Positions 2-16,456 of a stretch of DNA of 64,000 nucleotides are shown piece after piece (position 1 is the stretch's first letter; each line of letters opens with the position of its first letter). This DNA comes from Pseudomonadota bacterium (GTDB lineage Bacteria > Pseudomonadota > Gammaproteobacteria > Xanthomonadales > Xanthomonadaceae). Where the stretch lies: contig JAFEFT010000036.1 of the NCBI GenBank assembly GCA_018240435.1, positions 67,489 to 131,488 on the forward strand, written 5' to 3'. The notes below the pieces were generated by a model. It had not been told where the DNA came from, did no database searches, and saw nothing but the letters and a program-made list of their open reading frames with translations. The translations under genes were made by a program, and so were the position numbers.

Positions 2-3000
2 GGACGGCTCGCCGCCGCGTTCCAGTCCAACCCGCTGACGCCGATCCTCGCAATCCTCGGCCTGCTGTTGGGCCTGGTCGCGGTGATGATCACGCCGCGT
101 GAGGAAGAGCCGCAGATCGACGTGACGATGGCGAACGTGTTCGTGCCGTTCCCGGGCGCCAGCGCGCGCGACGTCGAGCAGTTGGTCAGCACGCCGCTGG
201 AGCAGAAGCTCTCCGAGATCGAGGGCGTCAAGCACGTCTACTCGACCAGTCGCCCGGGCATGGCGGTGCTCACCGTCGAATACACGGTCGGCGTGCAGCG
301 CCAGCCGGCACTCGTGCGCCTGTACAACGAGGTGTTCTCGAACCAGGACTGGATGCCGGCCGGCGCCGGGGTCGGCCAGCCGCTGGTCAAGCCCAAGGGC
401 ATCGACGACGTGCCGGTGATGGCGCTGACGTTGTGGACGGACGATCCGCAACGCGGCGCCATCGAGCTGGCCGAAGTGGCGCACACGCTGGAAACCGAGA
501 TCAAGCGCATCCCCGGAACGCGCGACGTCTACACGATCGGCGCGCCGGATCGGGTGGTGCTGGCGACGCTGGATCCATCGAAGCTCGCCGCGTACAACCT
601 GACCGTATCGGATCTCGCGCAGACGCTGCAGGCGGCCAATGCGGTGCGCCAGGCCGGCGAGCGCGTCGGCGGTGATCGCGCGGTACCCGTCACCGCGGGC
701 ACGTTCCTGGCCGACGCGGACGCGGTGTCCGGCCTGGTGATCGGCGTGAAGGACGGTCGCCCCCTGCACCTGTCCGACGTCGCCGAGGTGCAAGCCGGTG
801 CCGATGTCGCCGCACGCTACGCCTGGCATGGCGCGCCGCCGGGGCGCGCGGGACCGGTGGGCGGACTCGCCCCCGCGGTGACGATCGCCATCGCCAAGAA
901 GCCCGGCAGCAACGCCGCTGACATCACCAGCGCCGTCACCGGGCGCATGGACCAGATCAAGGGCGAACTGATTCCGCAGGGTGTCCATGTCACCGTCACT
1001 CGCGACTATGGACAGACAGCGACCGACAAGGCGGTAAAGCTGATCGAGAAGCTGGTGTTCGCGACCGCCTCGGTGATCCTGCTCGTGCTGTTCGCGCTCG
1101 GTTGGCGCGAGGCGATCGTGGTCGGCAGCGCGGTCGTGCTCACCTTGTCGGTCACGCTGTTCGCCTCGTGGGCCATGGGCTTCACGCTCAATCGCGTGTC
1201 GCTCTTCGCATTGATCTTTTCGATCGGCATCCTGGTCGACGATGCCATCGTGATCGTCGAGAACATCCACCGGCACATGACGCGCGATGGCAAGTCTCTG
1301 CGCGAGGCGATCCCGCCAGCCGTGGACGAGGTCGGCGGGCCGACGATCCTGGCCACTTTCACTGTGATCGCAGCTCTGATGCCGATGGCCTTCGTGTCCG
1401 GGCTGATGGGTCCCTACATGCGGCCGATTCCGATCAACGCTTCGGTCGGCATGCTGCTGTCGCTGGCCATCGCGCTGATCGTCACACCATGGCTGTCGCT
1501 GAAGCTGCTCTCGCGGCATGCGTCGAGGCAGGCCGACGACAGCCACGAACCGGCGACGCCGGAAGGCGGCAATCGCCTGCATCGGCTGTTCGGCACGATC
1601 ATGCGGCCGTTCCTCGACCCCGCCACCGGTGGCCGTCGGCGCACGCTGTTCTTCGGCGGCATCGTCGTGCTGGTCGTGCTGGCGGCTTCGCTCGCGGTGA
1701 TGCAGTTCGTGGTCCTGAAGATGCTGCCGTTCGACAACAAGTCCGAATTCCAGGTGGTCGTGGATACCCCGGAAGGGACCACGCTGGAGGAGACGAATGC
1801 ATTGCTGGTCGAACTGGCCGCCGCCGTCGACCGCGTCCCCGAGGTGCTGGACTACCAGGGTTATGCAGGCACGTCGGCGCCGATGAATTTCAACGGACTG
1901 GTGCGCCAGTATTTCCTGCGCAGCGGCAGCAATGTCGGCGACCTTCAGGTCAACCTCGTCGACAAGCGCCTGCGCAAGCGCCAGAGCCACGAGATCGCCA
2001 GCGCGCTGCGCCCGGCACTGGCCGCGATCGGCATGCGCCACGGCGCTTCTGTCAAGGTGGTGGAAGTCCCTCCCGGTCCGCCGGTGCTGTCGCCGCTGGT
2101 GGCCGAGGTCTACGGCCCCGACTACGCGCGCAGCCGCACGCTGGCGCTGGCGCTGGAACAGCGCTTCCTGAGGACCCGGGACATCGTCGATGTCGATACC
2201 AGCGTCGAGAGCGACGCGCCGCGCGAAACCCTCGTCGTCGACCGCGCCCGCGCCGCGACCCTGGGAGTGCCGCAGTCAGCGATCGCCGATGCACTGGCCG
2301 CCGCCGTGTCGGGGCTGGACGCGACGTATCTGCACGACGGTGCGTCCAAGTACCCGCGGCCGATCCGCCTGCGATTGCCAGCTTCCGAACAGGCCACGAT
2401 CGACCGCCTGCTCACCCTGCGCGTGCGCGGCGGCCAGGGTCAACTGGTGCCCTTGTCCGAGCTGGTCACCGTGCAGCGCGCGCCGTGGGACGGCGCGATC
2501 CTGCACAAGGACCTGCTGCCGGTCGTCTATGTCACCGGCGACGAGGCCGGTGGGCTGGACAGCCCGCTGTACGGCATGTTCGACCTCGTGAGCCAGTTGA
2601 ATCGCAACACCGTGGAGGGTCAGAAGATCGCGCAGACCTTCATCGCCCAGCCGGCGGACACCAGCGATTTCGCGATCAAGTGGGACGGCGAATGGCAGAT
2701 CACCTACGAGACCTTCCGCGACATGGGCATCGCCTACGCGGCCGGGATGGTCCTGATCTACCTGCTGGTGGTCGCCCAGTTCCGCAGCTACCTCGTGCCG
2801 CTGGTGATCATGGCGCCGATCCCGCTGACCGTGATCGGGGTGATGCCGGGCCACGCCCTGCTCGGCGCGCAATTCACCGCGACCTCGATGATCGGCATGA
2901 TCGCGCTGGCCGGCATCATCGTGCGCAACTCGATCCTGCTGGTGGACTTCATCAACCAGTCCATCGCCGAAGGCCGCAGCCCCGAGGATGCCGTGGTTGA

Positions 3001-4949: not shown

Positions 4950-5632
4950 GGCGACCAGCCAGGCCGCGGAGCGGGCAGCGTTCCAGCTGCCCGCTCATCG
5001 CTGGGCATCGGTTGCTCGCGGTCTACGCCGGCCTGGCCGAACGCGGCGAGCACCTGCTCGATGGCTTGCTGCGAGGCGAGTCCCCGAAGCAGTGGATGCA
5101 CTATCCCGCCGAAGACGCCATCGACGCCCAGAGCGGCTTCCAGTGGTTCTACCACTCGCATGCCCCCGGAGACCGAGCGGGGTCGGAAGAGCATGGGCAT
5201 TTCCACGTGTTCGCCCGCCGCTCGCTGTGGTCGCGCCGGCTGCGATCGACGTCGGAGAAATCTTTCGCTGCGATGACCGGACACCCGGGCCAGCGGGTCC
5301 AGACCCGTCACCTGTTCGGTATCGGCATGAGCGCGAAGGGAGTTCCAGTCCAACTGTTCACGGTCAACAGTTGGGTCACCGGCGACTTGATGCTCAGCGC
5401 CCAGACGACAGACAACCTACTCGCGGGAATGACACTGGCGACCGGTCATCCGGACATCGATGCGGTCATCGAGAGCGTGGCGACACTGTGCCGGGACGAG
5501 ATCCGCTGCCTGCTCGCCCTGCGTGACGCCAGGATCGCGACGGCGTCGCCGCAGCATGTACTGGACGAACCGCGCCTGGAGGTTCTGTCGGAAGTAGCGA
5601 TCGACCTTGACCGGAAACTCGCAACGACCTGA
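4919..5632 (+). CDS. DUF6969-like protein
   Basis: 237 residues, no signal peptide or TM segment. Conserved-looking core: WMHYPAEDAIDAQSGFQWFY, then HSHAPG, EEHGHFHVF, and later PVQLFTVNSWVTGD. The three His-rich motifs suggest a metal site. The pattern matches what I recall of DUF6969, a family without assigned function; recognition is from memory. The ATG at 4919 has AGGGG 8 bases upstream and lies inside the preceding gene, giving a 31-bp overlap and likely coupling. The Arg-rich first ~30 residues could be untranslated if a later start (for example TTG near 5009) is used. Confidence 0.65.
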   Translation: MRAQMRRQSLRRPARPRSGQRSSCPLIAGHRLLAVYAGLAERGEHLLDGLLRGESPKQWMHYPAEDAIDAQSGFQWFYHSHAPGDRAGSEEHGHFHVFARRSLWSRRLRSTSEKSFAAMTGHPGQRVQTRHLFGIGMSAKGVPVQLFTVNSWVTGDLMLSAQTTDNLLAGMTLATGHPDIDAVIESVATLCRDEIRCLLALRDARIATASPQHVLDEPRLEVLSEVAIDLDRKLATT

Positions 5633-5646
5633 AAGGAGAGCAACCC

Positions 5647-5802
5647 ATGTTCTGCAGTGCCTCAATCACCGAACACCTGCTGCGCGGCGCGCTGGCATGC
5701 ATCGCGATTGCGGCCGCATTCGCCGCGATGCCCCAGGTCTGGCCGACGTTTGTCCTTCTGCCCATCGCGCTGGTTCTCATGCGCGGATGGCTTGCACGAT
5801 GA
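5647..5802 (+). CDS. 51-residue membrane protein
   Basis: Short gene directly downstream of the DUF6969-like gene. A strong ribosome site (AAAGGAGAG) starts immediately after that gene's stop, and an ATG follows 7 bases later. The product has two hydrophobic stretches (LLRGALACIAIAAAFAAM and TFVLLPIALVLM) and a final Arg, with layout like the DUF2892 protein across the divergent promoter but without its CPMC ending. It is probably the last gene of the Cys-rich peptide operon. Function unknown. Confidence 0.7.
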   Translation: MFCSASITEHLLRGALACIAIAAAFAAMPQVWPTFVLLPIALVLMRGWLAR

Positions 5803-5867
5803 CCTGTTCGGTTGTCAGCGTGGCGAAGTCGTCGGGTACTTTGCCCTCAATTCAGTCGCGTTCTGTA

Positions 5868-6479
5868 CTACGCTGTATTGGGGAGCAATCCTTCGAACAT
5901 TTCACGAGACCAACGTGCGTGATCCTCGATCAGCTGCACGTATGCCGCGTTTCTCCACACCACCAGATCAGCCACTATTTCTTCTATCGACAAGACATCG
6001 CCGAAACCGAAAGCTTCGGAGACCGCCGTTCGACCTGCCACCGAACAACGCCCCCAGATGAGGATCCCGCCGGCGATGGCGATCGGCTTTCGAGCCACCT
6101 GGACCTCGAAGTGAGATGGGTCTCGACACGAGCGCAGGAAGATGTCGAAGGCCGGTTTGTTGTGATGTGCCAGCTGCTGAGGGGATTCGAGCTCGAAGTA
6201 CTTGAAGCCCTCGTATGCGATCTCGCACTTCATCTCGGCAACGAAGGCATGTCCCGTCGCGCGCGATCGCAAGGTGAAGTCGAGTGTGTGTGCCTTGCGT
6301 TGTCCAGGTTCGCGCAAGGAAGGACGTCCCAGGTTTTCGTACGGCGCCCGAGGATCGTCGGCCCAACACGCAACAATCTGTTCGCTGAAGATTCCGAACT
6401 GTCGGGAGAGAAAGTTGTCGCGAGCGCGCAACTGTGACTTGAACAGACGCTCGAACGAAGTCTCGGCTGCGATAGCCAT
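5868..6479 (-). CDS. Putative PD-(D/E)XK-fold nuclease linked to AbiE-like genes
   Basis: 203 residues from the ATG at 6479; a GTG one codon upstream is possible. The segment HTLDFTLRS...AFVAEMKCEI gives D67, then E82-x-K84 on a hydrophobic strand, the spacing of the PD-(D/E)XK nuclease core. The rest is mixed alpha/beta with no recognised domain. It lies 17 bp after the stop of the AbiEii-like toxin gene on the same strand, so it is the third gene of that operon. It may be a nuclease effector of a mobile defence locus (inference). Not recognised as a named family. Confidence 0.6.
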   Translation of the reverse strand: MAIAAETSFERLFKSQLRARDNFLSRQFGIFSEQIVACWADDPRAPYENLGRPSLREPGQRKAHTLDFTLRSRATGHAFVAEMKCEIAYEGFKYFELESPQQLAHHNKPAFDIFLRSCRDPSHFEVQVARKPIAIAGGILIWGRCSVAGRTAVSEAFGFGDVLSIEEIVADLVVWRNAAYVQLIEDHARWSREMFEGLLPNTA

Positions 6480-6496
6480 CACTGCCCCATGGGTCG

Positions 6497-7504
6497 TCAG
6501 TTGCTGTTAATTGCCTCTTCCAGCACCCGCAGTCGCTCCATGACAGCATCGAAATCCGGTGGCTCTCCGTAGAACATCCCGCCGGCGATCATCGCCTTCA
6601 GATCCGCGCCGACCGCCTCGCGGAGTGCGTCGGTCGGAGCAAGTCGGAAGCCGCCTGCGAGGCACGCGTCATAGTTCGCGTAAGAAGTGCTGTAAAAGAC
6701 CTTCTTGTGCTTTACGACGTCCGCGAGAAGATCGCGGTTCGCTATCGCGCGACTGCCGATCTCGTGATCGGCGAGCGATGCCAGATCGCACCAGTGCCTC
6801 GACATGCGATGAGCATCGGCCTTCAGTTCCTTGCGATGGCACTCCACATGGATCAGCGTGGCCTTCTCCCAGAACGTTCGTTCGGGAGCCAGCACGGTGG
6901 CCGTCGCGATCGGGAGTTCGAGGCCTGAGAGATGCTCAGCGATGTAGGGCCGGATGACGTGCCCTGCGTTGGGCTCCGTGATGTTCCTGCCGCCGAGTTC
7001 TATCAACACGCTTTCGGTCAGATAGCCGCCGCTCTTGTCCAGCGCGGACGGGTAGTAGATTCGAACCTCTTCACCGTTGTCACTGACTTCGACGTGCGCC
7101 TGACCGTCTGGGATTTCCTCTCGCAATCTCGTCTCGAGAAAGGGAACGATGACACCTCGGGAGTGGTCCCGCACGAAGCCTTTCAACTGATCGCTGAACT
7201 TCTTCAGCTTGGTTCCGGAGTGGGCCGGATCGAAGGGGTCCAGATCGTGTCCGAAGCCCCGATAGTCCAGGGTGACGTCGACATCTTCCGAGAAGCGATG
7301 GATCGCACCGTACACCTTGGAGAGCGACGTCCCGCCCTTAAATGCCATCGGCAGCCGCTCCGGCATGCCGAACAGCTGCTGCAACGCCCAGCAGACCCAC
7401 ACGTCCTTTTCCAGGACGAGCGGCAGGCGCCCGAGCTCGGGCGCCAGGCCGTTCAGGATTTCCGCTTGCTCGCTGAGGGGCAGGCGCACGAAGTGCTCAG
7501 CCAT
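6497..7504 (-). CDS. AbiEii/AbiGii-type nucleotidyltransferase toxin
   Basis: 335 residues. The nucleotidyltransferase core is clear: KGGTSLSK (56-63), then SEDVDVTL (72-79) supplying the two acidic metal ligands, and a later PERTFWEKATLIH block typical of AbiEii (COG2253). AbiEii-type toxins transfer nucleotides to target RNAs such as tRNA and are neutralised by AbiEi-type antitoxins. They act in abortive phage infection or plasmid addiction. The ATG overlaps the stop of the antitoxin gene by 8 bp, the usual type IV arrangement. Confidence 0.9.
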   Translation of the reverse strand: MAEHFVRLPLSEQAEILNGLAPELGRLPLVLEKDVWVCWALQQLFGMPERLPMAFKGGTSLSKVYGAIHRFSEDVDVTLDYRGFGHDLDPFDPAHSGTKLKKFSDQLKGFVRDHSRGVIVPFLETRLREEIPDGQAHVEVSDNGEEVRIYYPSALDKSGGYLTESVLIELGGRNITEPNAGHVIRPYIAEHLSGLELPIATATVLAPERTFWEKATLIHVECHRKELKADAHRMSRHWCDLASLADHEIGSRAIANRDLLADVVKHKKVFYSTSYANYDACLAGGFRLAPTDALREAVGADLKAMIAGGMFYGEPPDFDAVMERLRVLEEAINSN

Positions 7505-8108
7505 GAACTGCCGATTCCCGTTCGAAGCGTCGGAAAGTCTCGATCATCCAGCCGGGCATCGACTCCTTCGCCGAAGCCAAGGCTTCGAACTCCTCGGCCG
7601 ACAGTTTTCGGCGAATCCTTGAGATGGCCTGAGGCGTGACCTGCTTGCGGCCGAGGTACCACAACGCCGACAGCGCCAGCCCCGCCGGCCGGCCAGCCAG
7701 CGCCAGCTTCCGGGGCGCAACGTGCTTGAGAACGACCTGCATCTTGCCCATTCGGAATCGCTTGCTCGCACCGGAAGTGCAATAGACGGGCTGTGTCGGT
7801 GTCTGGGTCGTGAGCTCGAAGCGTCGCGCCGCCTCGGCGCCATGCACCTGCACGGTGCCGCCCGAGGCCTTGGCAACGGACTCGGCCACCTTGCCTGGTT
7901 CGGGCAATACCTTGCCGAGATACCGATTTTCCGCGGGCCGCACAAAGACCCCTCGGGTCACGCGGGTGATGAAGCCGCTCTTGACCAGTCGGGAGAGTGC
8001 CTGATCCACCGACGCGCGCGAACCTGCGCCCAGAAGCGCAGCCGTGGTGAACGGCTCGCCGGCAGGCAGGCTCTGGACATGGGAACGGACGCGCTCGATC
8101 GTGTTCAT
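7497..8108 (-). CDS. AbiEi-like antitoxin / transcriptional regulator (DUF6088 type)
   Basis: 203 residues. An N-terminal winged helix-turn-helix (residues about 5-65, reading FTTAALLGAGSRASVDQALS then SGFITRVTRGVFVRP) is followed by the antitoxin-type C-terminal domain. This is the pattern of DUF6088/AbiEi proteins encoded just upstream of AbiEii toxins. These antitoxins repress their own operon through inverted repeats. The ATG at 8108 is chosen because a good promoter ends exactly there; an in-frame extension to 8144 would overlap the promoter. The toxin gene overlaps its end. Confidence 0.85.
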   Translation of the reverse strand: MNTIERVRSHVQSLPAGEPFTTAALLGAGSRASVDQALSRLVKSGFITRVTRGVFVRPAENRYLGKVLPEPGKVAESVAKASGGTVQVHGAEAARRFELTTQTPTQPVYCTSGASKRFRMGKMQVVLKHVAPRKLALAGRPAGLALSALWYLGRKQVTPQAISRIRRKLSAEEFEALASAKESMPGWMIETFRRFERESAVHG

Positions 8109-8144
8109 GTCAGAAAATATATCAATGTTTCTGACAAATGGCAA
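8106..8144 (-). promoter_or_regulatory. AbiE-like operon promoter with overlapping palindromic operator
   Basis: On the minus strand TTGCCA (8144-8139), a 17-bp spacer and TATATT (8121-8116) form a near-consensus sigma-70 promoter. The -10 ends 7 bases before the antitoxin ATG, so transcription should begin at or one base before the start codon and the mRNA would be leaderless. A perfect 9-bp inverted repeat, TGTCAGAAA with its complement (8128-8136 and 8108-8116), straddles the -10 and start codon. It is the obvious candidate for self-repression by the AbiEi-like protein. Confidence 0.7.
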
Positions 8145-8597
8145 CTTGAGCGTTCAGCTGAAGGGACGGTTGGGTCACTGGAATGTGCCGAGAACCAGCA
8201 ACAGGTCGGCGCCAGACAGATCCAAGGACATGTCGTGGTGATCGGTTTTCCGGTGAATGAAGGGCGTGCGGTCACGCTAGGCCATAGGGGCGAATTGCCC
8301 TAATCCAACCGGGAAGGAGGTCGTCGCCCGAGAACTGGGCCGATAGAGCCCGAAAGCGCTCGTTTTCGACCGACAGCCGCCACGAAGTGATCGGAGAACC
8401 CCCCTCACGACCACGCTTTACGACACCACGAAGCCTTCCCGCTCGGGCAGAGTTCCCCCGCCCGAGTTCGGCTGCACCGGCAAATCCGGCGGGTTCGGGC
8501 GAAAAAAACCGGAAGTGCGCCGGCTAATGCCCTCATTCAGGGGGGCGCAGACCCCGTTCTGGCCGCACGCTTCCCGTGAATCCACGGAGACCTGGCC
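8145..8597. other. Gene-free stretch upstream of the uncharacterised pair
   Basis: About 450 bases with no convincing gene. Reading frames here are short or shadows of neighbours. A 38-codon frame from 8124 to the right has no ribosome site or recognisable product. A purine-rich stretch GGGAAGGAGG near 8310 has no open frame behind it. Short A-runs (GCGAAAAAAACC near 8500) occur before the start at 8598. Perhaps the region holds the promoter for the two genes to its right. Confidence 0.4.
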
Positions 8598-9386
8598 ATG
8601 ACCCTCGATAGTCCCTCCCTCCAACCCGACATGAAACCCGAACACTCCACCGGAGAACGATCTCCGGGCTCCCTGCCTGCGCTGGGCCTCGACCACATCT
8701 GGATCGCGGAAGGTGTCCAGTCGCGCGAAGCGGGGGTCCGATACGATCGCCGCCGTCTCTTCCGATGGGAAATGGACGCCCATGCGGTCCATGTCCTGGC
8801 CAGCGTGTTGCTGCACCGAGGCATCGACCCTCAGCTGATCCTCCGCGCCGATGGCGTCTTCGTGCGTCTCGACCGCCAGGGATTGCTGTTCCAACCGAAG
8901 GATGGCGCCGCCAACCTCATCGCATTCGTCGAGCCACTGAACCTCTGGCTCCAGCATTGGGCGATGCAGGTACAGGAGCAGGTCGAACTCTCCCCCGAGG
9001 AGGAGGACGCCGCCGAAACGCGGTTCGGCGTGCCGCTCGGACGACTCCACGACGCGGTTTGTGAAATCGCCGTCTCGTGTGAGCGCCGGCTGACGCTCGG
9101 TTGTCCCTCCATGAAGACCGTCGAACTGGTCGTACCGCCGGTGTCGCAACTCCGTAAAAGGCGCGCAATGAGAGACGCAACGGAGCCGGACGATCGCACC
9201 ATCGTGCTACGCATCGTGGAAAAGACCCATCTGATCAACGACGTCGGGCTGGTCTGCAGCGTGGATTCGGTGGCGGTCGACGCCAAGGTGCAGGAGGGCA
9301 CGAAGGCTCACCTGAAGCAGACAAGCAAACACGCGACCCAGGAGTGGCGCTCGGCAACACGCGTCTCTCCGTTGGAAGAGAAATGA
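8598..9386 (+). CDS. Uncharacterised island protein A
   Basis: 262 residues, not recognised. No signal peptide or TM segment. It looks like a real soluble protein: the N-terminal 30 residues are polar and Pro-rich, a compact core follows (LDHIWIAEGVQ... RRLFRWEMDAHAVHVLASVLL), and the C-terminal 80 residues are charged (TIVLRIVEKTHLINDVGLV). A weak ribosome site (GGAG) lies about 11 bases before the ATG. It is followed after 15 bp by another unknown gene with a good ribosome site, so the two form an operon convergent to the giant recombinase gene. Confidence 0.6.
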   Translation: MTLDSPSLQPDMKPEHSTGERSPGSLPALGLDHIWIAEGVQSREAGVRYDRRRLFRWEMDAHAVHVLASVLLHRGIDPQLILRADGVFVRLDRQGLLFQPKDGAANLIAFVEPLNLWLQHWAMQVQEQVELSPEEEDAAETRFGVPLGRLHDAVCEIAVSCERRLTLGCPSMKTVELVVPPVSQLRKRRAMRDATEPDDRTIVLRIVEKTHLINDVGLVCSVDSVAVDAKVQEGTKAHLKQTSKHATQEWRSATRVSPLEEK

Positions 9387-9401
9387 TCAAGGAGAATCAG
9401 C

Positions 9402-10136
9402 ATGACTGAGAGGAAGAACAGGCGACTTCGTCGCGCGCGAATCATCGGCGAGCTGCGTGTACAAGTCGCGGCTGTCGCCGCGTGCGGCGTGGCCTTGTTG
9501 GAGTTGGCGGAAGCCCAGCGGATACGTCACTGGCTGGCCCTTCTCGCAAGAATGTTGAAAAGCGAAGGCCCCTTCAGGATCGGTCGCTTTCTCGAAATCG
9601 AACCGGGGGTACTGAGCGTGCCGGTGCGCGATATCAGCGAATTGCAGGACGCCACGTTCGACCCCGACAAGCTCGTGGATCTGGCCCGTCATATCGACGA
9701 ACGGCATCGGACGGGCGCGAGAGTGAAGCCGACCGATGCGCCTGGCAACAGTGACAGCCGTCCGGAAGGAGCCGATGCCAAGAATGCGGACACTGAAATC
9801 GAGATCATCTGCAAAATGATCGACGAAGGCGGCGGCGTGACGCTGCTCAGCCCCACAGGTCGTCCTGTGCAGATGGGGCCCGAGCGTCCGCCACGGCGCA
9901 TCCGTGGCCATAGTCCGAACCCGGACATGCAGATGGATGTCGCATGCAGACGAGAGATGCGCCTGTTGATCACCAACAAGGGCTCCTACGTCGTCCGGCG
10001 AGACCGGAGCATCGGAGTGAAGGTCGGGGATGCTGTCGAGATCGTCGAGGAGGCCGATGGCGGCCTGATTCAATGCGTCCGCGCCAGAGCCGCCGTGAAG
10101 GCCGACAGTCAGCTGTCCCTGAAGTTGCTGTCCTGA
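9402..10136 (+). CDS. Uncharacterised island protein B
   Basis: 244 residues, not recognised. The start is strongly basic (TERKNRRLRRARIIGELR) and helical, which could contact nucleic acid. A variable Asp/Glu-rich linker lies near residues 110-130. The C-terminal half is beta-rich (MRLLITNKGSYVVRRDRSIGVKVGDAVEIVEE). AAGGAG lies 8 bases before the ATG. Its last 28 bp overlap tail-to-tail with the end of the 1863-residue recombinase gene on the other strand. It may be an accessory factor of that element (inference). Confidence 0.6.
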   Translation: MTERKNRRLRRARIIGELRVQVAAVAACGVALLELAEAQRIRHWLALLARMLKSEGPFRIGRFLEIEPGVLSVPVRDISELQDATFDPDKLVDLARHIDERHRTGARVKPTDAPGNSDSRPEGADAKNADTEIEIICKMIDEGGGVTLLSPTGRPVQMGPERPPRRIRGHSPNPDMQMDVACRREMRLLITNKGSYVVRRDRSIGVKVGDAVEIVEEADGGLIQCVRARAAVKADSQLSLKLLS

Positions 10137-13100
10137 CCGTCCCTGCCATCAGGAAGGTCAGCAGCCGAGTGATTCGGTCCCTTGGATGCACTGGCTCGCA
10201 CCGGAGTTGTCGACGCCGAATCCCCTTCGGACAAGCGCAGGCTGAGCCACACCATGCCCAGCACGCGCTTCAGGGCGATGCCAAGAAACTGATCGGCGGA
10301 CTGGCCGCTCTCCCTGGCCGGGGACGCTTTACGCTCCCGCTGGATTCGGATCGTCTCGAGCCCCTCGCCGAGGTCGCCACGCTCGATGCAGTCGTGACTC
10401 ACTCCGAACCCGTGCAGCACGGATACCAGGCGGGCGGCAGTGGCAGCAGGTAGCCGTATCCGGTCGGCATCTTTCGGCTGCATCCAGTCGTAGACCGAGC
10501 GAACAATCTGACTGATCTCGGCGACCATTTTCTCGTTGCTGCCGTCGAAGGATTTGCACAGCTCGCTCAGTGGCTCCGCCCCCCTGGTCTTGCGAGCCAG
10601 CCTTTTCGGGTGACCTGGCGAAGGATCGGCACCTCCGCCGATGAGCCGGCGTCCGAACCGCTGCTCGAAGGGCTTCGCAGCAAGCCGAATCCGCGCAGCA
10701 TCATCGGGATTGCCGCCGAGTGCCTCGAGGGCCCGATCCAGAGTCCCCATACGATCCACATGGTTCAGCAGGACGTCCAGTTCCTGAGCAGTCCATTTTC
10801 GCTGGACAGCCGACACGGGAGACGACGTTCGACGCACCGGTTGTGGCAACGTTCTCACCGGCTTGACGCTGTCCATCCATGCCTGTGCACGCGGCGTGCT
10901 CCTGTCCTTCTGCGTGATCTCATCGACCCGTGGGAGCGCCACCCCCAGGACGGACGCCACGGTCCTGCGATGCAGGTACCTATCGCTGATCCTTGCCTGT
11001 GGCCGCGATAGCAGGAGCCAGGGAAGGTGGTGATAGCACGTCAGCGTCGTTCGCCAGTGCGTGTGGCCCATCGTGATGACTTCTGCCATGAGGTCCCTGG
11101 GAAGCGCCACGTGCTGGCAGGCATGGCCATTCACGTTGCCTAATGCCACGCCGGACATCCGGCAGGCATCCTCACGGCTCAGGAAATGGGGCGTCGTGCG
11201 GTCAAACGCGACCAGATGCCGCAGACGATGAAGGCGTTCGGTCGGCCGTCCCGTGGCGGCCGCCAGGAATTTCTGGCAGGTTGCAGCGATCTCTCCGCGA
11301 CCATCGGCACTTCGCGGCGCGTTCAGCGGTGAAAACACGAAGGCGTGTTCGCTACGCGATTCCTGCAGGCGACGGCGATCGGTTTCGAGCCAGCGCGTGA
11401 TGTGCTCGGTCACGCCGGCCGGAAGGCCATGGGCCACCTCCACGATCCTCCTGGCGGCGCGCGTCTTCAACCGCCGGGAATGATTGGCACGAACGCGCAT
11501 GCGCGGGATGCCGCTGCGGACGGAGAAGTCTGCGAAGCGGGTGCCCAGGACCTCGCTGCGGCGTGCGCCGCCAAACGCATAAAGAGGAATGGCCGCGCCG
11601 GCCTGTCGCATCAGGCGACCCTGCCGCCTGGAATCAGCGTCCACACCCTCCGCCTGTCGGGCGCGCTCGATCAGGGAGGAGACCGCCGCCTGACGTTCGA
11701 CCGGAAGGATCAAGTGTGCATCGACCGAACGTTGATCACTGCGTAGGAACGCCCGCACCTCACACAGGTCCAGTTCGGGCAAGCCGAACCTGCGCACGCA
11801 ACAGTCGTGAAAGCTGAGGATTGCGGAAGCAGCGTCGTCGCAGGATTTATTCTCCACCTTGATGGCCGTGAGATAGGCGTCCTCGAGTTCCGCGCCGTCG
11901 ACGTCGACCATGGACGAGTTCCCGAGCGCTTCCACCAACGCGGCTCCGATACGGGTCAAATATGTGCTGATCGTGATGTCGGCAGGATCTACCTTGGCTT
12001 GCGTGCCTTCCTCGAGCATCTCCAGCGTCCACCTCGCCAGCATCCGCACAATCGGCTGCAAGCAGCGCGCTGGCGCTTCCTGCGCGAGCGTTGCGCTGAC
12101 CTCGGCGATGACTTTCGGGCGTGTTGCCGGGGCGAACAGATCGCTCGCCGGCACGTTGACTGCCGTCAACGGCAGCGCCAGATCCTTGCCCTTGTGCGGG
12201 AGTACGGCGCAAAGCGAGAGGTATTGTGTCCTTGCGCTGCTCTTGCTGGGCGGTGGCGTCCTTGCTTTCTCTCGCGCGGGCCCAGGGTCCACAGGCGCTT
12301 CCCAGTCCCGCACGAGGCTGCCGGGTGGATCGGCATCGATGAGCGCCAGTTGTTCGCGCATGTGGGCGCCGACCGAACCCTGCTCCGGATGCATGACCAG
12401 GCGCGCCGCCGGCGAGAGTTCGATGCGGTTACAGACCCCGACCGTCTCGCAGATCAGATCCAGCAGGTCGACAGTCTTCACGGACGAACCGATGGAATCG
12501 CCCTTGCCGCGCTTGGGCAGAGCCCATTCCGGCAGCATGACCGCCAGCGCGCCGTTGATCTCCTCGCGCGACGGCATCTCGTTGATCTTGTATTTCTTCG
12601 CAAGCTTGCCCAAGGCAAATGCCGCAAGGTCGCGCAAGGCGACCGGATCGGCGGCATCGTCGCGCCACGGCGCAAGCAACGTGTCGTCGAGGACGGCCGA
12701 CCTGACGCATTGCGACCGGTGCTTCAGCACACCCAGAATGCGATCAGGCTCCTCGCAGAAACCGAACAGGGCGATCGCGAGTGCCGCCCGTGCGCAGGCC
12801 CGGGGGAAGTCACGCCAGTCGTCGGGGGTATCCTCGCCGCGTTGGACCATCCATTCACGCAGTCCCTGCACCTGCCGGTAGGCGCGCAGCATTTCCGGAA
12901 AGAAGGCATTGTCGACCTGGCGCCGCATGCCGATCAGACGTGCAGGTTCCTGCTTCTTGACGCCGGCGCGCTTGTTGACGGCCTTCAGGATGCGGTGCAG
13001 CGCCACCGAACGCGCAAGACCCAACGCCACATCATCGTCGGCCTGCTCGTAGAGTTCGTCCCGCAGAGCCTCGGCCTCCTGCTTGGACAACAGCCTCATC

Positions 13101-15700
13101 GGCTGGGCCTCCGACTGGAAGGCGGCTGCTATGCCTGCCTCGACGATCGCGGGATGTTGAAGGACATCTTCGGTAGCGCGCTTGCGGTAGTGCTTCATCC
13201 GCGAGAGCTGTTCCAGGCGGGAGGCTTTTTGCCGGTCCCGGATGGCCTGCTCATGCTTCGCGATCGTGCTCGCCCAGGATCGCAACGGCGTCAGGGGCAA
13301 GCCGACCTGCTCATCCGCGCAGGGAAGACCCTTTCGGACCTTCCAGCCCTGCTGACGGGCGACCTTTTCCAGAAAGGGTCCAGCAGCCTCGACAAATGCC
13401 AGCGGCTCCGTGGGGCTACCGTTCGAGAATGGATAGTCGACTGCTTCCAGATGTCCCAACTGGATGGATGCCCACTCAGGGGGAAGTCCCGCCTCGGTCC
13501 CCCGCGTCCGGATCCAGCTGCGGCCCCAATGGAGCGGAAGGGTGCGCCAGATCTCCGGAAGCGTCGGCTTCCACGATTCCATCGTCAGCGCGACGACCTG
13601 GCTTTCTGACGAGACATGGAACAACAAGGGCTCTCGACCCTGAAGCACCCTGCGCACGTGGCCGGCCAGGGCCGGAAGAACCGAAGCCAATCCCCGGAGG
13701 TGAGCAAGATACTGCGTCAGCTGATCCCGCAGGCAGCGCGGGAACGCGACCAGCCTCGGGTTGTGGGCTGGATCGAAGATCTTGTCCAGGAATAGTCCCA
13801 GGCCCGCGTCCGCATCGGCACCGCCCACCGTGATCCGGAACAGAGCGTCTACCGCGCGGTGACCGGCCAGGGCCAGCAGCATGCAAGCCAGATGATTGAC
13901 GATCGCCTGGTGAACCAGCCAGGCATGGCCTTCCTTGATCAGCTGGCTTACTCCGGCTTGCAGCGGCGTGGACGGCGCGCTGGCCATCGCACGAACGGTG
14001 TCCTCGTTCAGGAGCAGATGACAGCCAACCCGAAGGTCCGGATCTTCGATGGCCGGCATGGCCTCGTCACTCGGAACCAGCGAGCGCAATGTCTTCCAGT
14101 AGGCGTTTGCCAGCGTGGATCGGGTGGGGGCGTAATAGTGAAGAGAGTTTGTGGACTGACCCAGCGAGTCCATGCAGATCAACTGCGTCAATGCGCTGTC
14201 ACGGCAATGCTCGTACAGGTGGGCCGAGAAGGACCGGCGCACCTGGCCGGCAGACAGCCGCAGGCCGAGCCTCGAACTGACATGGCGGGCCGCGGCCCGA
14301 AGGCGTCCGTCAAGACCGTCCGCGGTTGTTCTGGACAACCTGTCGAGCAGGTCGCGTTGCCTTCGCAGGGCCTCGGCGATTCCCGACCCGAGTGGTAACA
14401 GGAAGGATTCCCCAACCGGTTCTAGAAGAGGGATCTGCTCGGGTGTGGGAAGGAAATAGCCCAGTGGCTTGTCGGGCTTCTTTTCCTCTTTCCAGAAGAC
14501 CCCCAGTTGAAAGGTGCCCCGGGCCGGGCACAGTTCGAAGCGTCCGGCTTCCAGTTCCGAGGAGTGTCGCTCGACGACCTGGATGCTGCGCAGCGTCTTG
14601 CTGGTGCGACCGGTGATTCCCTGAAGGAGCAGGCATACCAGGCCCAGGTGCAGGTCCTGGTCTGCGGGGGCAGCTTGAAGGTCGGCCAGGATGAGACCCA
14701 TGACCTCACGCAACTCACCAGCCGGCAGTACGTCCGGGTGATTCGTCAGCAGGAACCGGTTCTGCCCCCAGATCGCCTGACGGGCCTGATAAACGGAGAG
14801 GCGCCCGGCGTCCGGATTGGTCGACGCGCCAACGGGGCAAACGAACTCCGACGTGGAGACCTCTCCCGCCGGCTCACCTTCGGTCGGCTCGCCCTCCGGC
14901 CCCGCCACGCGGGCCGAAACGCGACGGATGGGGCGGACGATGGCATCGATCGCATCGTCTTCATCGAACACCTTCTTCCTGGATTTTTTCTGGCCTCCGC
15001 CCGAAGGTCCCGCTACGACCGGAGGTGGTATAGGGATCGGCTCCGGTCGCGGCATCCGGGCCAGGCTCATTAGCGTGCCTTCAACGTGGTTTGACCAGGC
15101 GTCCTCGATGCTGGCCTGCCCACACCCCTTCAAGACAGCGGCCCGGTCGATGAACCCGGGAAGGTCGGCAGCCCCACCGAGTTTCGTGACATGGCGGACA
15201 ACCGGGTGCGCGTCCATCTCTTTGGGACCACGCACCAGCACGATGCTTCGGATGCTGGAGGCCAGGTCTCTCACTGCCGTCCAGCGCGGTCGGCCTTCGG
15301 CGAACCAGTTGGCATGGCACGTCCAGAGGGCTGCTCGCAGTGCCTCGGTTCCGCGTGCGGGTTCCTCGTCGGCACCCACCATGGCACCCGCGAGACCAAA
15401 CTCCTTGCCGCTCATCTGGTGGGCCGCCACCTTCCGGCTTCCTTTCGGGAGGCCATCGATGCGCTCGATGACCCGCTCGAGCCGACCCATCAGGCTTTCG
15501 TTGGGTTCTGGCAATCCCGCCCAAGAAATTTCCCGGGCGACGCGGCGCAGGGAGTAGAAGAGCTGGGGGGCCTCCAGGATGCTCGGCACCTGGAACAAGT
15601 GGAGGGTGAACTGGACCCATTCCTCGTCGGGTCCGAAGCCGTTGACGCGCTTCGATAGCGAGCTGCCGACGCGCGTTGGTTCGAGCTTCGGAAGGGTCAT
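10109..15700 (-). CDS. Giant tyrosine recombinase with three integrase-like modules
   Basis: 1863 residues in one unbroken frame. A complete tyrosine-recombinase core lies near residues 1370-1570: Arg in GGARRSEVLG, Lys in RLKTRAARRIVEV, His-x-x-Arg in LHRLRHLVAF, His in MGHTHW, and the nucleophile Tyr in LTCYHH (about 1556). A second integrase-like module near 590-760 has AGHRAVDAL, HWGR, QLGH and VDYPF. A third near 350-530 has GRTSKTLR, VRRSFSAHLYE and SLHYYAP, with the box II His replaced by Gln. Long helical stretches separate them and a small helical domain ends the protein. No ribosome site precedes the ATG. It is the likely mobility gene of the island. Trio-type elements encode several recombinases separately, so a fusion is possible (inference). 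Confidence 0.75.
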   Translation of the reverse strand: MTLPKLEPTRVGSSLSKRVNGFGPDEEWVQFTLHLFQVPSILEAPQLFYSLRRVAREISWAGLPEPNESLMGRLERVIERIDGLPKGSRKVAAHQMSGKEFGLAGAMVGADEEPARGTEALRAALWTCHANWFAEGRPRWTAVRDLASSIRSIVLVRGPKEMDAHPVVRHVTKLGGAADLPGFIDRAAVLKGCGQASIEDAWSNHVEGTLMSLARMPRPEPIPIPPPVVAGPSGGGQKKSRKKVFDEDDAIDAIVRPIRRVSARVAGPEGEPTEGEPAGEVSTSEFVCPVGASTNPDAGRLSVYQARQAIWGQNRFLLTNHPDVLPAGELREVMGLILADLQAAPADQDLHLGLVCLLLQGITGRTSKTLRSIQVVERHSSELEAGRFELCPARGTFQLGVFWKEEKKPDKPLGYFLPTPEQIPLLEPVGESFLLPLGSGIAEALRRQRDLLDRLSRTTADGLDGRLRAAARHVSSRLGLRLSAGQVRRSFSAHLYEHCRDSALTQLICMDSLGQSTNSLHYYAPTRSTLANAYWKTLRSLVPSDEAMPAIEDPDLRVGCHLLLNEDTVRAMASAPSTPLQAGVSQLIKEGHAWLVHQAIVNHLACMLLALAGHRAVDALFRITVGGADADAGLGLFLDKIFDPAHNPRLVAFPRCLRDQLTQYLAHLRGLASVLPALAGHVRRVLQGREPLLFHVSSESQVVALTMESWKPTLPEIWRTLPLHWGRSWIRTRGTEAGLPPEWASIQLGHLEAVDYPFSNGSPTEPLAFVEAAGPFLEKVARQQGWKVRKGLPCADEQVGLPLTPLRSWASTIAKHEQAIRDRQKASRLEQLSRMKHYRKRATEDVLQHPAIVEAGIAAAFQSEAQPMRLLSKQEAEALRDELYEQADDDVALGLARSVALHRILKAVNKRAGVKKQEPARLIGMRRQVDNAFFPEMLRAYRQVQGLREWMVQRGEDTPDDWRDFPRACARAALAIALFGFCEEPDRILGVLKHRSQCVRSAVLDDTLLAPWRDDAADPVALRDLAAFALGKLAKKYKINEMPSREEINGALAVMLPEWALPKRGKGDSIGSSVKTVDLLDLICETVGVCNRIELSPAARLVMHPEQGSVGAHMREQLALIDADPPGSLVRDWEAPVDPGPAREKARTPPPSKSSARTQYLSLCAVLPHKGKDLALPLTAVNVPASDLFAPATRPKVIAEVSATLAQEAPARCLQPIVRMLARWTLEMLEEGTQAKVDPADITISTYLTRIGAALVEALGNSSMVDVDGAELEDAYLTAIKVENKSCDDAASAILSFHDCCVRRFGLPELDLCEVRAFLRSDQRSVDAHLILPVERQAAVSSLIERARQAEGVDADSRRQGRLMRQAGAAIPLYAFGGARRSEVLGTRFADFSVRSGIPRMRVRANHSRRLKTRAARRIVEVAHGLPAGVTEHITRWLETDRRRLQESRSEHAFVFSPLNAPRSADGRGEIAATCQKFLAAATGRPTERLHRLRHLVAFDRTTPHFLSREDACRMSGVALGNVNGHACQHVALPRDLMAEVITMGHTHWRTTLTCYHHLPWLLLSRPQARISDRYLHRRTVASVLGVALPRVDEITQKDRSTPRAQAWMDSVKPVRTLPQPVRRTSSPVSAVQRKWTAQELDVLLNHVDRMGTLDRALEALGGNPDDAARIRLAAKPFEQRFGRRLIGGGADPSPGHPKRLARKTRGAEPLSELCKSFDGSNEKMVAEISQIVRSVYDWMQPKDADRIRLPAATAARLVSVLHGFGVSHDCIERGDLGEGLETIRIQRERKASPARESGQSADQFLGIALKRVLGMVWLSLRLSEGDSASTTPVRASASKGPNHSAADLPDGRDGQDSNFRDS

Positions 15701-16135
15701 AATCGGGGTGCCGGGCCCGGTGATGCTTGAGTCTACCGCCCCCTCTGTTGCCGTGCCAAGTTTTATGGTTTTCTTGTGGTCGGATTTACCTCAATCTACG
15801 TGAGGCGACGGAAGGGCGCCGACTGCAACTGCCTGAACCAAGTAATTTTAAGGCCTCTTAGAAAAAGTTATTGTTTTTCGGGTAGCGTTCGCGTGACGGA
15901 CTCATAATGCCAACTTTATTTCAATGGATTCAAGACGTTGTGTTCGCCCCAAGGCGGGCGTAGTCGTTGGGCGCAGGCCTGTGACAGGTTCTGTGACAGG
16001 TTCTGTGACAGTCGCCACTGTCACAAGGCAGATCGCCCATGCTGTTTTGACCCCGGCACACTGTGGCGAACCGCCATGGCTGCGTAATGCGACCCATGCC
16101 GGTACGCGATTCCGGCCCAACTCGGGGGCCGGGCC
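15701..16135. other. Intergenic region at the right edge of the island
   Basis: 435 bases with no supported gene. The half next to the recombinase gene is AT-rich for this genome (TTTTATGGTTTTCTTG near 15760, GTAATTTTAAGG near 15840, GTTATTGTTTTTCGG near 15870) and should contain that gene's promoter, though no -35/-10 pair stands out. The other half holds the CTGTGACAG repeats described separately, then normal high-GC sequence leading into the sigma-28 fragment. This looks like the junction between imported and resident DNA. Confidence 0.5.
15979..16025. repeat. CTGTGACAG repeat cluster, candidate recombinase binding/attachment site
   Basis: Three copies of the 9-bp palindrome CTGTGACAG at 15979, 15991 and 16003, spaced exactly 12 bp apart and joined by GTT. 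The third forms an inverted repeat with 16017-16025: TGTGACAGT, 4-base spacer CGCC, ACTGTCACA. Read as 8-bp arms the centre is 6 bp, within the 6-8 bp crossover size of tyrosine-recombinase core sites. It lies about 280 bp upstream of the giant recombinase gene. No second copy was found elsewhere in the window, so attachment-site status is unproven. Confidence 0.5.
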
Positions 16136-16456
16136 TCAAGCCGAAAGGTGCAATTGCGCGGTCTGGCCGAGCAGCACCCTCAGTCTCCCCAGTGCAGCCT
16201 TGTGGACCTGGGAGATTCTTCCCTTCGTCAAGCCCAGCAGGGCGGCAATGTCCACGAATGCCATGTGCTGGTGATAGTGCAGCGTCACCACCAGCCTTTC
16301 CTGCCCGGACAGGCATGAGACGGCGGCTGCCAGGAGCTCATCCATCTCCTGCCTTTCCGCGTTCATGCTGGCGTCGAAGGGGGAAATGAACTGGTCTGCC
16401 GCCGCGTTCGAATCCAGCAGGAACCCCAGGCCTAGCCCAATCACGGACTCGACCAC
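16136..16456 (-). pseudogene. Sigma-28 (FliA)-like fragment containing region 4 only
   Basis: The encoded C-terminus reads ERLVVTLHYHQHMAFVDIA and LGLTKGRISQVHKAALGRLR. This is the region 4 DNA-binding part of FliA/WhiG-type sigma factors. Full-length FliA is about 240 residues; regions 2 and 3 are absent. The GTG at 16456 is only nominal: the frame stays open upstream with plausible coding (FDAPGRDNPLEEVVESV) and then runs into a REP-like palindrome. Either this is the stump of a flagellar sigma gene cut at the island edge, or a small stand-alone region 4 protein. No other flagellar genes are nearby. Confidence 0.55.

Follow-up and report, generated by a model that had tools for sequence, protein, structure and literature searches.

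The window analyzed here is a 64,000-nucleotide stretch of DNA from a Pseudomonadota bacterium of the family Xanthomonadaceae (GenBank assembly GCA_018240435.1, contig JAFEFT010000036.1, positions 67,489 to 131,488 of the forward strand). It holds a giant gene, P0001, predicted to encode a fused tyrosine recombinase, which stands in a region of lowered guanine-plus-cytosine (G+C) content together with a toxin-antitoxin pair, two unknown genes, and a stretch rich in adenine and thymine (A+T) that carries iterons (Table 1). A preliminary description of this DNA had recognized one unbroken frame with three integrase-like regions and had suggested that it may be either a fused trio or a new giant class of recombinase with one active and two structural or DNA-binding modules. 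We propose that P0001 is a single-chain tyrosine recombinase of a genomic island, in which the C-terminal module M3 is complete and the Tyr of module M1 and the pocket of module M2 make up a divided second active site, an interpretation that we hold to be reasonably probable.

Table 1. Features at the P0001 locus, in window coordinates, with residue numbers of the P0001 protein.
Feature	Coordinates	Residues	Strand	Basis
Giant fused tyrosine recombinase gene P0001	10109..15700	1863 in total	-	ATG start; coding G+C pattern; long homologs
Module M1, catalytic domain with only the nucleophile Tyr522 kept	14081..14683	~340-540	-	hhalign; PDB entry 4a8e
Tyr522 codon	14135..14137	522	-	Conservation across aligned rows
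Module M2, pocket (Arg615, Lys640, Arg727, Gly749-His750), lacking the nucleophile Tyr	13331..14038	~555-790	-	hhalign; PDB; residue counts
Region X, weakly supported candidate for a fourth recombinase module, fully degenerate	12206..13003	~900-1165	-	hhalign to M3
Module M3, complete, comprising a core-binding and a catalytic part (Arg1380, Lys1412, His1491, Arg1494, His1546, Tyr1556)	10901..12103	~1200-1600	-	hhalign; PDB
AbiEii toxin and AbiEi-type (DUF6088) antitoxin, probable cargo	6497-7504, 7497-8144		-	Pfam; PADLOC
Two unknown genes (262 and 244 residues), probable cargo	8598..10136		+	No Pfam or PADLOC match
A+T-rich stretch with iterons, candidate element end or recombinase/regulator sites	15820..16025		.	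Sequence

The P0001 frame is unbroken as first described; its G+C content by codon position is 0.69/0.49/0.76, as in a coding gene, and homologs in other genomes align over nearly its entire length. The protein had no match among Pfam or NCBIfam models at a cut-off as lenient as E 10, and none in PADLOC, while phmmer against the PDB returned chance matches only. The PHROG 'integrase' profile reached E 0.015, in the M3 region only, and Pfam Phage_integrase stayed below its cut-off on the relatives, the best being 26.8 versus 27.1 bits (P0003).

The identity of the modules comes from profile comparison. We aligned the family profile of each module with 30 ordinary tyrosine recombinases by hhalign, using 60 column-shuffled copies each of M1 and M2 as a control. 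The match was 85.7% for M1 (E 5.5e-6, score 42.5, best shuffle 16.0), 97.1% for M2 (E 5.8e-11, score 76.6, best shuffle 19.0), and 99.3% for M3 (E 4.6e-20), where each E-value holds for one target, a limit that lowers its weight. The column shuffles are a lenient control, since the C-terminal region, too, scored higher than its shuffled copies (15.9 versus 13.5). M2 aligned directly with M3 at 86.3%. Profile searches of PDB sequences, built from 36/41 M1, 38/42 M2, 36/37 M3, and 30/36 region X sequences, gave as the top match for M1 the entry 4a8e (E 0.0046), titled 'probable tyrosine recombinase XerC-like', which we take to be Pyrococcus XerA. The same entry came first for M2 (E 1.3e-6), ahead of XerD (E 1.6e-5), and M3 retrieved Int, XerA, XerD, and Cre entries from E 1.1e-14. 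All three regions of the preliminary description thus match recombinases by profile and in the PDB, M1 and M2 well above shuffled controls, and by sequence comparison P0001 is a protein with at least three tyrosine-recombinase domains, M1, M2, and M3, in one chain. Among the PDB chains, 9i5v_14 (401 residues) is labeled ribosome-associated inhibitor RaiA; it matches the M2 (E 0.0047) and M3 (E 2.3e-11) profiles, and the label therefore looks wrong.

Conservation was counted in 43 N rows, stop-to-stop frames covering M1 and M2, and in 37 C rows covering M3. These are what the alignments kept of 45 N and 49 C matches once those below 45 bits or too short had been dropped, among them a separate M1 frame at locus L058 and a partial M2 at L114. 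Tyr522 is Tyr in all 41 rows that have the residue (two of the 43 have gaps), is the one column without variation among the 36 rows of the M1 alignment, and falls at the position of the catalytic Tyr in ordinary recombinases (hhalign) and in 4a8e (HMMER, columns read by eye). The box-I site of M1 is Arg in 3 of 39 rows; the box-II His was correctly reported as missing from this module, and the loss extends to the whole pocket, leaving only the Tyr. M2 keeps Arg615, Arg649, and Arg727 in 42/42 rows, Lys640 in 41/42 (one Arg), and Gly749 and His750 in 42/42 each. Three of the 42 M2 rows, the window not among them, carry a Tyr 7 to 10 positions after this His (H+7 to H+10), compared with 37/37 in M3, and position H+8 of M2 is Trp in 11, Phe in 10, and Tyr in 2 of 42. 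The Tyr earlier noted in the middle module is not at a conserved nucleophile position. M3 has Arg1380, Lys1412, Arg1418, Arg1494, Gly1545, and Tyr1556 in 37/37 rows each and His1546 in 36/37, while its box-II site is His in 30/37, Tyr in 6, and Gly in 1, in agreement with the earlier statement that the last module has every catalytic residue. The catalytic motif set of the superfamily is therefore present in M3, and in M1 and M2 only jointly, with Asn mostly replacing the box-II His of M2. Across Tyr522, Arg615, Lys640, Arg727, and Gly-His750 the sole departure is one Lys-to-Arg change. Each of M1 and M2 keeps the half of one catalytic set that the other lacks, a pattern suggestive of a naturally divided enzyme.

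In the mechanism that we propose, M3, in the C-terminal half, would be one complete active site, and the N-terminal half would be a duplicated recombinase with labor divided between its two copies. M2 would bind and activate the scissile phosphate via Arg615, Lys640, Arg727, and His750, and M1 would give the nucleophile Tyr522 to the M2 pocket from outside, as a Flp monomer gives its own to a neighbor. One chain would have two working active sites, one per strand of the crossover site, and two chains would build the full synaptic complex. Most relatives examined carry these modules as a coupled gene pair, N and C, which would have become fused in the window's lineage. We infer that Tyr522 reacts in the pocket of M2, that the synapse is built from two chains, that the genes were fused rather than split, and that this protein moves the island. 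Flp, from the yeast 2-micron plasmid, has an active site shared between domains: its Tyr-343 goes to a neighbor that holds the remaining five residues, and the Y343F mutant complements R191A (PMC6594588). Flp monomers are identical and each has both halves, whereas P0001 would use halves on different specialized modules of one chain.

Were only M3 catalytic, M1 and M2 would be DNA-binding or structural remnants that shape the synapse, much as the preliminary description had supposed. The full residue set of M3, the missing pocket of M1, the missing Tyr of M2, and a box-II His that is mostly Asn in M2 are all in keeping with this, and incomplete recombinases can be essential partners, as is GinC of the GInt islands, which lacks the first Arg (PMC5385486). 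Pure remnants, on the other hand, are not expected to keep Tyr522 in 41/41 rows and Arg615, Arg727, and His750 in 42/42, and Tyr522 is kept while the rest of M1 has no other invariant column. Because the catalytic residues kept in M1 and in M2 complement each other, a picture of one active module and two structural ones fits poorly, and we consider it unlikely that M3 acts as the only catalytic module.

The two putative halves can also sit on different frames, as the borders at two loci indicate. At L058 (7683-13063), M1 occupies its own 529-residue frame, the stop of which overlaps the ATG (TAATG) of the M2-to-M3 frame, and at L050 a stop at the M1/M2 border is followed by GTG. L058 offers a ready-made case in which donation of the tyrosine from one protein to another could be examined. 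At L017 (4830-8911), on the Sphingobium yanoikuyae plasmid p-A-Sy, a short N frame with M2 and only the end of M1 adjoins a 947-residue integrase. Tyrosine recombinases form cyclic tetramers in which C-terminal parts are exchanged, and shared sites may be wired in other ways: Tyr522 into the M3 pocket, Tyr1556 into the M2 pocket, or donation that occurs solely from one chain to another within such a tetramer. The tetramer architecture and the separate M1 frame of L058 speak for such wirings. Against them, M3 has its own pocket and Tyr (37/37) and thus needs no donor, and we regard these wirings as distinctly unlikely.

Relatives of P0001 were found in 6 genomes among 199 relatives, in 13 of 369 genomes of a class sample, and in 22 of 398 of a phylum sample, with its own genome counted each time. 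We examined 43 loci, including 20 of the 29 non-window places on the phylum-sample list. One scan of genome contigs gave none and another gave two loci, in a Lysobacterales metagenome-assembled genome (L060) and in Wenzhouxiangella limi (L061), the named homologs, from which the host of P0001 probably belongs to this order. Twenty-nine loci have two genes, N (M1 and M2) and C (with M3). Ten carry one fused frame (the window, L009, L010, L011, L051, L052, L054, L108, L111, and L113), one (L008) is fused-like and incomplete, and three are odd (L050, L058, and L114). Complete N frames span ~740-910 residues, with a few shorter or truncated by contig ends, and complete C frames ~730-1220. In a junction table of 25 of the 29 split loci, a possible start codon lies 4 or 8 bases inside the N gene end in 15 pairs. 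Downstream of the intact pair at L099, C-type recombinase fragments (9173-10059) look like a second, decayed copy.

These pairs bear on the idea of a fused recombinase-in-trio (RIT) or GInt trio, in which three ancestral single-domain recombinase genes would have merged. Three modules in a row would suit such an origin, as would start/stop overlaps as short as those reported for RITs (PMC3414803) and the likeness of the TnpC-like GinD of GInts to a gene of 145-213 residues that precedes some split pairs. Nevertheless, 29 of the 43 loci carry two genes instead of three, and GInt and RIT enzymes are described as keeping a Tyr in each protein. A merged trio is therefore very improbable; of the reading first proposed, fusion and a giant class are supported, and a trio is not. 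RIT elements are adjacent, short-overlapping recombinase genes for three separate proteins, with a possible R-H-Y motif per family that is not in every RitB member (PMC3414803); the window has one gene. GInt ginABCD islands, in Pseudomonas and others, have several tyrosine recombinases, all needed, as three separate integrases plus the small GinD, whereas one P0001 gene holds all modules. The RHRHY motif, present in GinABC except for the first Arg of GinC, sets them further apart, and the part of that description available to us mentions neither a division into Tyr donor and pocket nor a fusion (PMC5385486). Tn554 has a transposing pair of tyrosine recombinases, TnpA and TnpB, one long and one of normal length.

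Trees of the two halves speak to the history of the fusion. The N tree comprised 42 of the 43 rows, with L008 counted as fused, and the C tree 37 rows, 9 of them fused. In the N tree, L050 falls together with the 11 fused rows in a single group (support 83/89), and the fused and split states need one change without the two M1-split rows and two changes with them, matched by 0 of 500 shuffles. N and C distances correlate (Spearman 0.62 over 36 loci, with 0 of 1000 permutations as high), and the halves therefore travelled together. Fused forms cluster, and we place the direction as a fusion in the window's lineage, where the tree counts would fit fusion or splitting alike.

Between M2 and M3, region X may be a fourth, degenerate recombinase module, a lead with weak support. 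Residues 845-1190 align with M3 by hhalign over 177 columns that include the box-I helix and the following strands (score 27.1, E 0.0055), with 10.7 as the best of 60 shuffles. Against ordinary recombinases, region X scored 18.3, hardly over its shuffles (17.9); the PDB profile search gave it no recombinase match, and it has no conserved catalytic residues. A chain with four recombinase-fold modules (M1 as donor, M2 as pocket, X degenerate, and M3 complete) would be a single-chain pseudo-tetramer or two single-chain dimers, with Tyr and pocket carried by separate domains, which in one or more relatives belong to separate proteins. We regard this as possible and on balance doubtful.

Around P0001, G+C content is 56-64% over ~5633-16130, compared with 67-68% in the surroundings. 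Downstream of the AbiE pair lies an unknown gene of 204 residues (5868-6482). The second of the two plus-strand genes is convergent with P0001 and overlaps its 3' end by 28 bp, and small minus-strand frames lie upstream of P0001. Beyond the P0001 start, G+C falls to 40.5% at 15820-15930, followed by three tandem 12-bp iterons that begin with TGTGACAG at 15980, 15992, and 16004 and an inverted copy at 16018; four of the five occurrences of the TGTGACAG octamer on either strand of the window fall within 15980-16025. A 106-residue frame at 16136-16456 has only sigma-70 region 4 (Pfam Sigma70_r4) and is possibly a gene fragment beside the island. Among four other genomes of the genus, the left flank is retained as far as 5623-5632 in two and a continuous right flank in none, and all lack a P0001 homolog. 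When the presumed edges are compared, their best direct repeat measures 9 bp, a length reached in 38 of 100 shuffles. P0001 probably runs a mobile island of ~10.5 kb with the AbiE pair, the ends of which are candidates.

Several points weigh against the interpretation as a whole. The single basis for wiring M1 to M2, over M1 to M3 or between chains, is the complementary conservation that the sequences suggest, and the box-II His of M2 is Asn in 34 of 42 rows, although it is His in the window. M1 matches the other modules weakly when aligned directly (5.7% with M2 and 16.5% with M3), early 9-row alignments of M1 against them gave nothing better than E 0.075, and its top PDB match is modest, with unrelated cell filamentation proteins next, from E 0.023. 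AlphaFold2 models from just three sequences for M1-M2 (mean predicted local distance difference test, pLDDT, 41.6) and just two for region X (mean pLDDT 36.7) were unusable. Of the two loci where M1 and M2 are on different frames, the M1 frame of L058 scores only 21 bits against the N profile and the contig of L050 ends early. On the C tree, the fused/split label changes twice if the M1-split rows are left out and three times if they are included. At the level of the island, neither an empty site nor a clear attachment (att) repeat was found at the window edges or in the four genomes of the genus, and P0001 was the sole match to itself in its own 71-contig genome; the evidence for mobility is therefore indirect.

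Related pairs also occur on plasmids. We inspected six plasmid records, from Acinetobacter (L018, L019, L149), Aeromonas (L016), Sphingobium (L017), and Vibrio (L148), of which L016-L019 match both N and C profiles and L148 and L149 were assigned by gene size and annotation only. The Acinetobacter, Vibrio, and Sphingobium plasmids have two genes, in contrast to the one of the window; the pairs are annotated automatically as 'hypothetical protein' and 'tyrosine-type recombinase/integrase', and L016 is unannotated. We found no description of such an N and C pair in the available parts of the literature surveyed. A tblastn search of plasmids with P0001 found none. One C protein matches 204 plasmid records at E 1e-5, 201 of them from Acinetobacter; among the matches listed (30 of 204), all fall in its M3 part, and ordinary integrases may thus account for some of the records. 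A short gene, of 145-213 residues, precedes the split pair at L016, L018, L019, L105, L106, L148 (by tblastn), and L149 (by position only). Its proteins are related among L016, L148, L105, and L106, and likewise between L018 and L019, and no match was seen in the window. Because this gene stands before several split pairs, some of these systems are trios of a small protein, N, and C.

Viral collections were a further place to look for relatives. Scans of viral contigs with family queries found none, save one that returned six loci, five of them weak (C-profile scores of 13-14 bits) and the sixth, L062, with two 335-residue frames at 32-33 bits. We rejected L062 as a family member, its integrase-like frames being of ordinary size and without an N half. 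A tblastn search of 50,697 phage records with one split N protein also found none, and a phage origin was set aside, as no clear family member appeared in the viral or phage collections. The gamma-mobile-trio protein GmtY is the recombinase of a defense-rich island. Its model NF040693 (441 positions) matches no family locus among the matches listed for 19 genomes; the single above-cut-off match among them (G309:C9) is on a different contig from the family locus of that genome (G309:C2), and GmtY was likewise rejected.

The usual picture of a tyrosine recombinase is a single domain that holds a whole active site. If the proposed arrangement is true, the permanent separation of nucleophile and pocket in P0001 would be a natural version of the half-site complementation experiment carried out with Flp, and single mutations would make the question of strand cleavage in cis or in trans directly testable. 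P0001 would also be a recombinase whose two strand exchanges could be switched off independently. For the family, the arrangement would give a function to the 'hypothetical' genes beside big plasmid and island integrases, mainly in Gammaproteobacteria among those examined.

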